A stretch of 40,980 nt of DNA from a virus, in the IMG/VR virus record IMGVR_UViG_3300048586_000924, positions 1 to 40,980 of that record, one strand, 5' to 3'. The notes below the pieces were generated by a model, which had not been told where the DNA came from, searched no databases, and worked only from the letters and a program-made list of their open reading frames with translations. Both the position numbers and the translations under genes were made by a program. Shown here piece by piece: positions 35,345 to 38,636 of this stretch; position 1 is the stretch's first letter, and each line of letters begins with the position of its first letter.

Positions 35345-36298
35345 ATGCCCCGTGCCATCGGCGCGAACTGCCGCCTGCTCATGCTGCCCGAAACCGTCTA
35401 CGGCACCGCCCCCGGCAGCAATTGGCGGCGCATGCCGTTCCTGTCCTGCGATCTTGGCGCCGAGCAGCCGCTGCTCGATGCTGACGTCATCGGCGTGGGC
35501 AGCAACCGCGATCCCGCCGCGCCCTTCCTGGATACCGTGACGGTCGCCGGCCAGGCCGTGGTGCCGGTCGATCTGATCAACATCGGCCACTGGCTGCGGC
35601 TGCTGCTCGGCGCGCCGACCACCACCGGCACGACCAACTTCATCCACACTTTCGCCTCGGGCGCGGCCGCACTGCCGAGCAACGCGATGGAGATCGGTTA
35701 TCCGGACGTGCCGTCCTTCGACGTGTGCACCGGCGTGCGCGCGGACACGCTGGAGCTGGACTTCACGCCGACCGGCGCGGCGACGGCAATCTTCGGGCTG
35801 CTCGGCCAGGGCTCGGTGCGCACCGGCGCCACCTCAGGTGGCACGCCGACCAGCGCCGCCTACACGGCATTCAACAAGGCGCAGGGATCGATCACGCGCA
35901 GCGGCTCGGCGCTGGCGCAGGTCACCGGCGCGCGGCTCACCTACGCCAATGGCATGGAGGCGGTGCGCACCATCCGAGCCGACCGTCGCGTTGAGGGCGT
36001 GGACCCCGGCATCGCGCGCTGCACCGGCCAGATCACGGTGCGCTTCGAGAACACCACGCTCCTTGCCCAGGCGCAGGCCGGCACCTCGGCGGAATTCGCG
36101 CTGGCCTTCACCATTGATGCCAACCGCAGCCTCACCATCACGCTGCACGAGGTCTATCTGGCGCTGGCCAAGACGCCGATCGAGGGGCCGGCGGGCGTGG
36201 AGGCCAGCTTCGACTTCCGGGCTGCGTTCAACGCGACGGCGACGCGGATGATGACGGCGGTGCTGCGGAACCAGCAGGCGGCGACGGAGTACGCGTGA
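35345..36298 (+). CDS. Tail tube protein
   Basis: A 317-aa protein of the phage tail tube class: N-terminal NCRLLMLPETVYGTAPGSNW, the VPVDLINIGHWLRLLLG helix, FIHTFASG, and two repeated beta domains ending in VEASFDFRAAFNA. It would stack as hexameric rings on the tape measure. In related phages the tail chaperone G follows at once; here a 1.6-kb cargo unit with the transporter on the other strand is inserted between them. The start has CCGGAGAAAGCTC before it. Confidence 0.9.
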   Translation: MPRAIGANCRLLMLPETVYGTAPGSNWRRMPFLSCDLGAEQPLLDADVIGVGSNRDPAAPFLDTVTVAGQAVVPVDLINIGHWLRLLLGAPTTTGTTNFIHTFASGAAALPSNAMEIGYPDVPSFDVCTGVRADTLELDFTPTGAATAIFGLLGQGSVRTGATSGGTPTSAAYTAFNKAQGSITRSGSALAQVTGARLTYANGMEAVRTIRADRRVEGVDPGIARCTGQITVRFENTTLLAQAQAGTSAEFALAFTIDANRSLTITLHEVYLALAKTPIEGPAGVEASFDFRAAFNATATRMMTAVLRNQQAATEYA

Positions 36299-36390
36299 CG
36301 CTCGTGGCGTCGCCGGTATGAGCCAAAATGCGGAGCCGCTTGGTTCAGGGGTAATCGTCATCCTTGGATCGCATGCCGTGCGGCATCCGC

Positions 36391-37224
36391 TCAGCGTTGA
36401 GCCGCTGCCTCCCGCGCGGCAGCGGCCTTCGCGGCGCCCTTGCGCCATAGCTTGACCGACGAGGCCAGCAGGATAGCCCCGAGGACGAGCTTCAACGCGT
36501 CGACCGGAATAAAGGGCAGCAGTGCGGCCCCTGCCATCGCGCCGAGGATCGACCCGGCCGCCATTGGCGCCGCGACCCCACGCAAGACCGCGCGGTCGCG
36601 GTAGCCACCGGCTCGGGCATGGCGCAGCACGCCGACGGCCACGGCGGGCAGGCTGACCATGAGGCTCGCGGAACCTGCTGCGCGTATGTCGAGGCCGAAG
36701 CCAAAGATCAGCGTCGGGATGATGAGTTCGCCCCCCGCCACGCCGAGCAGCGAGGAGACGAGGCCGATGACCACCCCGGCGACGGCGCCCGCCGGGGCGC
36801 GCCACCAACCGCCGGGCTCCGCCCCGAGGTGCAGCGCCTCCCCCGCGATAGCTTCGACAAGGAGCAGCGTGCCGATGCCGGCCAGCAGCACGGCGATGAC
36901 CCGCGTCAGCCGTACGGCGTCAATGCGCGTGAGCAATCCGGCACCGAACCACGCCGCTGTCATCGCAGCGAGGGTGAGCGCGGCGATCTCCGGGGCGTGC
37001 GGCCAGAGGTCCGGCGCCGTGCCAAAGCCAAGCCGGGCCACGGCGGAGGCGCCGAGAGTGACGAGGCTGACCAGCAGGTTCAGCCGCACCGCCTGGTGCG
37101 CCGCTAGCGCGAATAGGCCGAGCAGGACCGGTAGCCGGAACTCGGCACCACCGAGGCCGATCAGGCCACCCAGCGTACCGATCGCGCCCCCCCAGCCGAG
37201 TGCGGTGAGCGACGACGTTCTCAT
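36391..37224 (-). CDS. TauE/SafE-family membrane transporter (cargo)
   Basis: A 277-aa inner-membrane protein with about eight hydrophobic spans in two repeated halves. Each half has the family signature: GTLGGLIGLGGAEFRLP near residue 17 and GLVSSLLGVAGGELIIP near 150. TauE/SafE (TSUP) proteins export or import small oxyanions and sulfur compounds such as sulfite, sulfoacetate or taurine-derived products. It is the only gene on the minus strand in the late region and interrupts the tail operon. It diverges from the ModE-like regulator gene, and a Mo-box-like palindrome lies 138 bp upstream of its start. The substrate is unknown; a molybdenum or sulfur oxyanion link is inferred. Confidence 0.85.
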   Translation of the reverse strand: MRTSSLTALGWGGAIGTLGGLIGLGGAEFRLPVLLGLFALAAHQAVRLNLLVSLVTLGASAVARLGFGTAPDLWPHAPEIAALTLAAMTAAWFGAGLLTRIDAVRLTRVIAVLLAGIGTLLLVEAIAGEALHLGAEPGGWWRAPAGAVAGVVIGLVSSLLGVAGGELIIPTLIFGFGLDIRAAGSASLMVSLPAVAVGVLRHARAGGYRDRAVLRGVAAPMAAGSILGAMAGAALLPFIPVDALKLVLGAILLASSVKLWRKGAAKAAAAREAAAQR

Positions 37225-37362
37225 GCGGGGCTGCGTCGTGCCATGGCGTCACCCCAGGTCCGACGCTGATGCGCGGCGAACGGCACGGCGCCCTCGATAA
37301 GGCCGAGCTTGCCGTGGCGGGTCTGGTTCGCCGGACTGCGTCGCCCCACGAGGCTCTCCTGT

Positions 37363-37386
37363 CGCTATCTTTCTTGGTAGATAGCG
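37363..37386. promoter_or_regulatory. Perfect 8-8-8 palindrome resembling a ModE (Mo) box
   Basis: CGCTATCT (37363-37370), 8 bp TTCTTGGT, AGATAGCG (37379-37386). The known E. coli ModE site has the layout CGTTATAT-N8-ATATAACG-like; six of eight positions of the left arm agree. It lies between the divergent transporter and ModE-like gene (66 bp before the latter's start), which supports autoregulation. Confidence 0.75.
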
Positions 37387-37452
37387 GTCGGTGGCTCCTG
37401 CCTGCAACTGGCGGCGGTGGCGCCTCTCCCGGCACCGTGGTTCCCTCGCCCG

Positions 37453-37833
37453 ATGGCGGTGAAGCGAAAGATTGGGGAGAAGGGCGCGCGCCGGGCGCTA
37501 ACGCTGCGCCTCGCGCTCGGCGAGGGTGTGGCGCTCGGGCCCGGCAAGGCGGAATTGCTGGCGGGCATCCGCGACGCGGGCTCCATCGCCGCGGCCGGGC
37601 GGCAGATGGGGATGAGCTACCAACGTGCCCACGACCTCGTGGCGGCGCTGAACGCCGACTTCCGGGAGCCACTGGTGGCGACCGCGATGGGCGGGACAGG
37701 CGGCGGCGGGGCACGGCTCACACCGCTCGGCGAGGAGGTGCTGCGCGCCTACCGCGATGCGGAGGCCGCCGCCGAGACGGCCGTGGCGGACCGACTCGCC
37801 TGGCTGCGCAGCGCGCTGGCGCGGCGGGACTGA
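37453..37833 (+). CDS. ModE-like winged-HTH regulator (N-terminal domain only)
   Basis: A 126-aa protein matching the DNA-binding domain of ModE. KAELLAGIRDAGSIAAAGRQMG with MSYQRAHDLVAALN forms the helix-turn-helix, followed by the wing (TAMGGTGGGGARLTPLGEEVLRAYR) and a dimerisation helix. The C-terminal molybdate-binding (Mop/TOBE) domains of full ModE (about 260 aa) are absent, so how it senses a signal is unclear. A start at GTG 37417 is possible; the Met at 37453 gives the family-like length. It likely controls the divergent transporter through the palindrome upstream. It ends 79 bp before the tail chaperone gene. Confidence 0.8.
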   Translation: MAVKRKIGEKGARRALTLRLALGEGVALGPGKAELLAGIRDAGSIAAAGRQMGMSYQRAHDLVAALNADFREPLVATAMGGTGGGGARLTPLGEEVLRAYRDAEAAAETAVADRLAWLRSALARRD

Positions 37834-37912
37834 GGCCGCACCAGCAATAGCCGACATCTCGGCGGCAGCTTCGCCGAGCGGACAAGACCCAAGCGGAACA
37901 ACGGAGAACCCC

Positions 37913-38290
37913 ATGCTCACCCTCGACCTCCCGGTCGAGCCGTACTGGCTCGACCTGCCGCGCGGAGTCCGCGTGGAAATCCGCCCCGTCACCACCGCCG
38001 TGATGGCAGCCGCCCAGGCCGGCTCCGCGCGGCGCCTCGGCGCGCTGCGGACCGCAGAGGCCGACCTCGATCCCGACATGGCCCGCGGCCTGGCCTTCGC
38101 CCTCCTGGTCAAGGCGCTGGCCCGCCACGCCGTCACCGCCTGGGAGGGCGTTGGCGACGCCGCCGGTAAGCCGCTGCCGCTCTCGCCCGAGGCCGTCGAG
38201 CGCCTGATGGACATGGACGACATGGCGGCCGCCTTCTGGGATCGCGCCACCGGCCCGGTCGCCGCGGTGGCCCTGGAGGGAAACGGCTAA
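37913..38290 (+). CDS. Tail assembly chaperone (G protein)
   Basis: A 125-aa protein, the 0-frame product of a G/GT pair. It begins MLTLDLPVEPYWLDLPRGV, has a helical middle (MARGLAFALLVKALARHAV), a PLSPEAVERLMDMDDMAAAFW segment and ends ALEGNG. Such chaperones coat the tape measure protein during tail assembly. GGAGAACCCC precedes the ATG. A slippery GGGAAAC heptamer at 38278-38284 lies at the end of the gene, 3 nt before the stop codon. A longer frame upstream runs over the ModE-like gene and was not used. Confidence 0.85.
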   Translation: MLTLDLPVEPYWLDLPRGVRVEIRPVTTAVMAAAQAGSARRLGALRTAEADLDPDMARGLAFALLVKALARHAVTAWEGVGDAAGKPLPLSPEAVERLMDMDDMAAAFWDRATGPVAAVALEGNG

Positions 38291-38324
38291 GGGCCCGCGC
38301 CGATTGGCACTTCGGCCAGGGCCC
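38278..38324 (+). other. Programmed -1 ribosomal frameshift site with stem-loop
   Basis: Heptamer GGGAAAC (38278-38284) is in the correct phase (G GGA AAC). A 6-nt spacer includes the 0-frame stop, then a stem-loop: GGGCCC (38291-38296) with GGGCCC (38319-38324) and, inside, GCCGA (38299-38303) with TCGGC (38312-38316). It resembles lambda's G GGA AAG at the G/GT junction. Confidence 0.85.
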
Positions 38325-38607
38325 TGACTACTGCCGCGGCTGCGCGGCCCTCGATCGCGATTGCGGCCTCGCCTGCCCCTACGCCGCCCAAGCCCCGGCC
38401 AGCGTCGAGGGAGCCGCCGTCTGGGCCGCCGGCACCACCTGCGCCACGGCGACCATGGCCGGCTTTGACCTCGACATGCCGGCGGCGCTCGCCACCGCCC
38501 GCGAGATGGGCGCCCCCGGCTGGGCCGCCGCGGAACTCCTGCTCGCCATGCGCATGGGCCTCGCCGCCGGCAGCGCCGCACGACGCCCCAATCCTCCCGG
38601 ATCCTGA
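38284..38607 (+). CDS. Frameshift-dependent extension of the tail chaperone (T part of G-T)
   Basis: An open -1 frame continuing directly after the slippery site to the TGA at 38605-38607; about 107 residues. It has no good start or ribosome site of its own (first Met only in the middle, 38452 region). The translation is not random: ADWHFGQGPDYCRGCAALDRD, a CGLACPY cysteine pair, then AALATAREMGAPGWAAAELLLAM. The four cysteines could bind zinc. In lambda the T part recruits the tail tube protein to the chaperone-coated tape measure. Made at a few percent of G if the frameshift works as in lambda. Confidence 0.8.
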   Translation, partial: RLRARADWHFGQGPDYCRGCAALDRDCGLACPYAAQAPASVEGAAVWAAGTTCATATMAGFDLDMPAALATAREMGAPGWAAAELLLAMRMGLAAGSAARRPNPPGS

Positions 38608-38636
38608 TCACCCCACCGACGCAGGAGGCGTGACGC

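Follow-up and report, generated by a model that had tools for sequence, protein, structure and literature searches.

The two overlapping reading frames that directly precede the tape measure gene in this viral DNA almost certainly constitute one tail-assembly-chaperone gene, predicted to yield a short G protein and, by programmed -1 frameshifting, a longer G-T fusion. The window, which is the whole 40,980-nucleotide stretch analysed here (IMG/VR record IMGVR_UViG_3300048586_000924), had initially been annotated as carrying a frameshifted counterpart of the lambda G/GT genes. The phase of the slippery heptamer, the match of G to the tail assembly chaperone family PHROG 313, the conservation of the signal among relatives and the joined coding sequence of the homologous gene in the Rhodobacter phage RcKemmy all support this assignment. 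Taken together, the position and phase of the signal, the family match and the comparison with relatives lead to a programmed -1 frameshift of the lambda G/GT type. The mechanism itself is known and widespread. The features of the region are listed in Table 1.

Table 1. Positions of the chaperone gene, its frameshift elements and the neighbouring genes in the window
Feature	Position	Strand	Basis
Tail tube protein gene, nearest phage gene upstream of G	35345..36298	+	PF18906 Phage_tube_2, E 9.6e-51
Variable cargo slot, tail tube gene to chaperone gene (window)	36299-37912
TauE/SafE-like transporter gene, antisense to the tail operon	36391-37224	-
ModE-like DNA-binding protein / regulator gene	37417-37833	+
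GGAG, likely ribosome-binding site of the G gene	37903..37906	+	letters read directly; function inferred
G-like gene, tail assembly chaperone, 125 aa	37913..38290	+	PHROG 313, model, Foldseek
Slippery heptamer G GGA AAC	38278..38284	+	phase checked; same place in relatives
T-like -1 frame, 107 codons and TGA, reached through the heptamer	38284..38607	+
6-nt spacer GGC TAA, last three bases the 0-frame stop	38285..38290	+	read directly
Two-part stem-loop	38291..38324	+	folding of the window; comparison with relatives
AGGAGG, likely ribosome-binding site of the tape measure gene	38623..38628	+	letters read directly; function inferred
Tape measure protein gene, 718 aa	38637..40793	+	PF20155 TMP_3, E 1.2e-50; TIGR02675

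The G protein, which starts at ATG 37913, ends in ...LEGNG, and its stop codon TAA occupies 38288-38290. As the initial annotation had it, GGGAAAC is read as G GGA AAC in the frame of this gene and is followed by a spacer of six nucleotides. After slippage, the frame would read GGG AAA CGG CTA AGG and continue to the TGA at 38605-38607, and the predicted fusion has 231 residues, 107 of which come from the -1 frame (from CGG at 38284). The -1 frame is open over 38170-38607. The earlier statement that this frame has about 107 residues and no start of its own is also borne out, as no ATG, GTG or TTG codon occurs in it between 38170 and 38454, and its first ATG, at 38455, lies deep in the conserved part of T.

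Within the window, these signals are not exceptional. GGGAAAC occurs three times against 2.46 expected, which is unremarkable alone. An in-phase XXXYYYZ heptamer with Y = A or T arose in the frame overlap in 3.1% of 5000 synonymous reshuffles of the G gene, and one with any Y in 23% of 5000. Because the heptamer and the stem are just modestly unusual in the window, its own statistics were dropped as the main argument. The frameshift signal stands far above chance because it is conserved in relatives.

For this comparison we used 195 records, namely the window and 194 loci (given L numbers), which include some repeats and comprise 141 distinct 75-nt sequences. Searches with the T part yielded 68 loci in viral contigs and 251 matching loci in genome contigs, of which 80 were kept; by title, the latter are mostly Acetobacteraceae. 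More loci were added through distant queries, annotated phages and plasmids. T was placed by query peptides and a motif that all lie 3' of the heptamer, so that the heptamer was not selected for. A wider regular expression found one motif site in each of the 195 records, and the six loci that had been missed by a narrower expression were inspected singly, the heptamer being present in all of them.

An XXXYYYZ heptamer lies exactly 27 nt before the same Trp codon in 192 of the 195 records and in 139 of the 141 distinct sequences. It is GGGAAAC in 178 records (126 distinct sequences), AAAAAAC in 13 (12 distinct) and AAAAAAA in one, and all three types permit double slippage. Its identity varies among the relatives, while its place and phase are constant. 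Of the 139 distinct sequences, 126 have a 0-frame stop that ends 6 nt past the heptamer; in the remaining 13, this distance is 66 to 120 nt. The codons within the heptamer are otherwise uncommon: in 150 related G genes, GGA makes up 13 of the 1047 Gly codons and AAA 42 of the 330 Lys codons, but GGA is present in 126 of 126 GGGAAAC heptamers and AAA in 13 of 13 other heptamers. The slippery A-site codon (38282-38284 in the window) is AAC in 138 of the 139 distinct heptamers and AAG in none. T is also conserved as a protein, with 13 invariant columns in 33 rows at identities to the window down to 31%. Conservation of the heptamer and of the -1 frame in relatives had been set as the test of the original assignment, and both are conserved.

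The exceptions are few. At L022 (2990-3010), the sequence is GTGAAAC, and a 0-frame TGA overlaps a GTG start in the T frame; this locus may represent either a broken prophage or stop-start coupling in place of frameshifting. L024 and L089, apparently one Humitalea rosea contig, are cut 83 bases upstream of T, where other sequence follows and the end of G is lost.

The same comparison weighs on other ways of producing T. If T were made as a separate protein without fusion, from a non-standard start or by reinitiation near the G stop, the overlapping stop and start (GTGA) of L022, located where the heptamer would be, and the CTG codon in the -1 frame at 38236 of the window would find an explanation. 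However, the window offers no conventional start before 38455, and just 10 of the 141 distinct sequences have a start codon in the 90 nt preceding the heptamer or from there up to the Trp codon. Moreover, the -1 frame is stopped immediately 5' of the heptamer in L074 and one codon 5' of it in L070, so that in these loci T can be entered only at the heptamer. Separate synthesis would also leave no reason for keeping a heptamer with rare codons, and we consider it very unlikely. Slippage of the RNA polymerase on a run of A, instead of ribosomal slippage, is less probable still: a run of six or more A is present in 13 of the 139 distinct sequences, but the window and the other GGGAAAC sequences (126 of 139) have just AAA after GGG, which is too short for ordinary polymerase slippage. 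The idea that G and T are one reading frame broken by a sequencing error or by decay draws on a sole point, the presence of both frames within one annotated RcKemmy product. It is already refuted by conservation, since the identical break, with the 0-frame stop 6 nt on, recurs in 126 of the 139 distinct heptamer-bearing sequences, in carriers that include isolates, MAGs and viral contigs; we dropped it and give it practically no weight.

The G protein matches PHROG 313, a tail assembly chaperone family, with an E-value of 1.4e-14, and the same family was found in 32 of 33 members. In the structural comparison, the G model (pLDDT 91.8) had 2ob9, the HK97 tail assembly chaperone, as its best PDB match in Foldseek, although this match was weak (E 0.29, TM 0.46/0.52). 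Aligned with 2ob9, the model gave a Z score of 5.3 over 92 residues (rmsd 5.4, rank 2), tied with 3fgx (Z 5.5), and a sequence identity of 10-11%. By sequence, the best match of G among solved structures reached E 0.08, to proteins called MSD1. A frameshift is usually found in chaperone genes of this kind (PMC8601537).

The two-part stem-loop folds as had been described. Its outer stem pairs GGGCCC at 38291-38296 with GGGCCC at 38319-38324, its inner stem pairs GCCGA at 38299-38303 with TCGGC at 38312-38316, and the minimum free energy of 38279-38345 is -31.2 kcal/mol. In frameshifts of the lambda G/GT type, a stimulatory RNA structure is common, but not obligatory. The 6-nt spacer is within the usual range of 5-9 nt (PMC7618472). 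We regard the stem-loop as a probable stimulator of slippage, and weighed this role against the view that frameshifting is real, but that the stem arises mainly as a by-product of GC-rich codons for R-A-R-A-x-W-H-F-G-x-G-P and contributes little, slippage being governed by the heptamer and other context.

The window stem was unremarkable relative to dinucleotide shuffles (z -1.26, rank 22 of 200) and modest relative to synonymous reshuffles (z -2.10, 16 of 400; z -1.78 when repeated). Across 27 non-redundant sequences, the window included, z against synonymous reshuffles averaged -1.40, compared with -0.12 for 232 control windows taken from the same genes, and 13 of the 27 stems had a z of -1.5 or lower as compared to 40 of the 232 controls (rank test p 2e-6, with rows that are not independent). 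This excess argues against a mere by-product. Folding above the synonymous expectation is thus found in about half of the diverse relatives and is not universal; seven of the 25 sequences tested (L068, L070, L071, L073, L152, L183 and L184) showed no excess over the synonymous background, as a by-product would. The GGGCCC/GGGCCC pairing around GCCGA/TCGGC is the stem of the window clade, its outer pairs being shifted by one base in several relatives. RcKemmy (L069), Shinella (L072) and L181 have other sequence and form a hairpin in the equivalent position, its loop falling on the Trp-His codons.

Covariation of the stem, proposed at the outset as a check, gave a divided answer in 23 rows, which like the 27 above are a greedy non-redundant subset. 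The covariation score was 0.187 as compared to 0.118 in shuffles (0 of 500), and at one stem pair 12 of the rows have GC and 8 have CG, which speaks for the stem. On the other hand, pairs changed on both sides were not in excess (5 versus 4.3 in shuffles; 207 of 500), the pairing slid by -1 has as many cells changed on both sides (19 versus 18) and scores nearly as well on some measures, and RNAalifold on 23 diverse rows found no covarying stem, with 3 pairs and no compensatory change; these results favor the by-product. With RNAalifold unsupportive and the counted measures mixed, we dropped covariation as proof of the stem, and claim only that the tendency to fold is conserved, without extending this to the scheme of pairs. 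On balance, the by-product view appears unlikely, but deserves appreciable weight.

The -1 frame had been described as a coherent, Cys-containing sequence. Four Cys, at T residues 19, 22, 29 and 33 (numbering from the GGG codon), are invariant across all 33 rows. They form a CxxC followed by two Cys that are 2 to 4 residues apart in 32 of the 33 rows and 11 apart in L155, an arrangement compatible with metal binding by the criterion for a zinc-binding Cys4 domain. The invariance of the four Cys, although their spacing changes, suggests that the T part binds a metal. A literature search on zinc or cysteine in tail chaperones found no pertinent work, and the zinc ribbon of Acinetobacter phage Loki sits in another gene (PMC5313236).

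The T sequence of the window had no meaningful match in Pfam, NCBIfam or PHROG. The T model, although confident (pLDDT 90.3), had no PDB fold match, and in BFVD 3 of 24 weak matches were named tape measure or tail assembly chaperones (E 0.64, 2.9 and 4.0), the Loki chaperone appearing just as the weak match at E 4.0. As nothing was significant, identification with a known T domain by sequence or fold was dropped. PHROG 11212 (55 residues, function unknown) was matched by 9 of the 33 T members, which it covers over the C-terminal half alone, the pattern that would result from gene callers placing the start of T at an internal codon. Indeed, the annotated T gene of Nostoc phage Nsp-JY21 starts internally, without the cysteine segment. 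The initial claim that the fusion would be missed by standard gene calling fits these two cases, but not RcKemmy, in which gp16 is already deposited as a joined tail assembly chaperone CDS over the gene with the same heptamer. The comparison would correct the annotation of a large prophage group, mostly from Acetobacteraceae, in which gene callers readily truncate or overlook the chaperone fusion. It also delineates a family of T domains that has four invariant cysteines and is absent from Pfam.

RcKemmy and its relatives are homologous to the window in both frames (tblastn E 4e-12), and carry GGGAAAC at an equal distance from the Trp codon. They differ in that the 0-frame stop of RcKemmy lies 93 nt past the heptamer rather than 6, its T is 32% identical to that of the window, and no cargo lies between the tube gene and G. 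The available part of the PRFect paper (PMC10885494) mentions neither Rhodobacter nor GGGAAAC. In lambda (G_GGA_AAG) and its counterparts in other long-tailed phages, as in the window, two frames precede the tape measure gene, with an in-phase heptamer near the end of the first; in those phages it provides a low-level -1 extension with a T domain, as predicted for the window (PMC5009743, PMC7618472). In contrast to lambda, the window has AAC rather than AAG as the A-site codon, a T with four Cys and without detected sequence similarity, a strong stem-loop directly after the stop, and cargo genes between the tube gene and G. Calling the arrangement a textbook case is thus appropriate overall, except for the A-site codon and for the stem, which is unexceptional in some relatives.

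Ribosomes are predicted to slip at this site, a minority of them doing so. The majority would translate 37913-38290 into the 125-residue G-like chaperone. With GGA and AAC in the P and A sites, the stem-loop right after the stop would hinder the ribosome, and the minority would slip back to GGG AAA and continue in the -1 frame to produce the 231-residue G-T fusion. In lambda, both gpG and gpGT attach to the tape measure protein, and T is responsible for recruiting the tube protein (PMC5009743). Systems of this type are characterized by a fusion that is produced at a low ratio, is needed for tails and is missing from virions. By analogy, G of the window would cover the tape measure protein, and tube subunits would be recruited through the T part.

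In E. coli, slippage is far more frequent on A_AAA_AAG than on A_AAA_AAC (PMC5009743). AAC is found elsewhere as well: for g-t expression, the haloarchaeal viruses HCTV-1 and HCTV-2 rely on G_GGA_AAC or A_AAA_AAC (PMC5009743), and AAAAAAC is the predicted site in Loki (PMC5313236). The likeness of these viruses to the window family is one of slippery-site type. Therefore, the choice of AAC is not unique, although its uniformity in the window family is notable. With AAC almost always in the slippery A site, where E. coli prefers AAG, the family provides a natural set for studying the tRNA properties that permit bacterial -1 slippage. One possible, though rather doubtful, combination of these features is that, in this alphaproteobacterial phage family, the T recruiter of tube subunits is a Cys4, zinc-knuckle-like, metal-binding domain and is also produced via slippage of tRNA-Asn at AAC, a weak heptamer type in E. 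coli. Such a T would, under this same tentative reading, differ from the T domains examined to date, making tail assembly dependent on metal and on the tRNA-Asn of the host.

L070 and OP858991.1 are phages recorded from Nostoc and Synechococcus, with a tail module related to alphaproteobacterial phages. The two have identical match statistics, and their hosts may have been recorded wrongly. Six loci (L076, L084, L101, L107, L110 and L138) all come from one Falsiroseomonas tokyonensis assembly, and several related prophages or remnants thus share this genome.

The slot between the tube gene and G is highly variable, with 120 distinct contents in 140 records in which both ends are visible, and spans 2 to 3489 bases, sizes bounded by the flank lengths of the records. 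In records with an empty slot, the stop codon of the tube gene overlaps the start codon of G. The cargo of the window, a TauE-like and a ModE-like gene, was found in four other loci alone (L005, L010, L040 and L110). Our survey of the slot used GC3-filtered ORFs, and 57 of 86 ORF clusters were scanned by their representatives. The families seen include KaiC ATPase, MerT, histidine kinase, and retron III-A-type RT and PRTase models; by locus, GmrSD was found in L058, PRTase in L081, an RmrA model in L147 and a pyridine nucleotide-disulphide oxidoreductase in L094. The slot genes include metabolic, transport and anti-phage types, and the slot looks like a moron/defence hotspot inside the late tail operon. 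A literature search (prophage, Roseomonas, defense system) gave no title naming such a hotspot among the matches listed. Just upstream of G, a recurrent ATGTCAGACTTTGACATG motif with dyad symmetry was present in 15 of 125 long-slot records (e.g. L047 and L049), and is possibly the operator of a cargo cassette.
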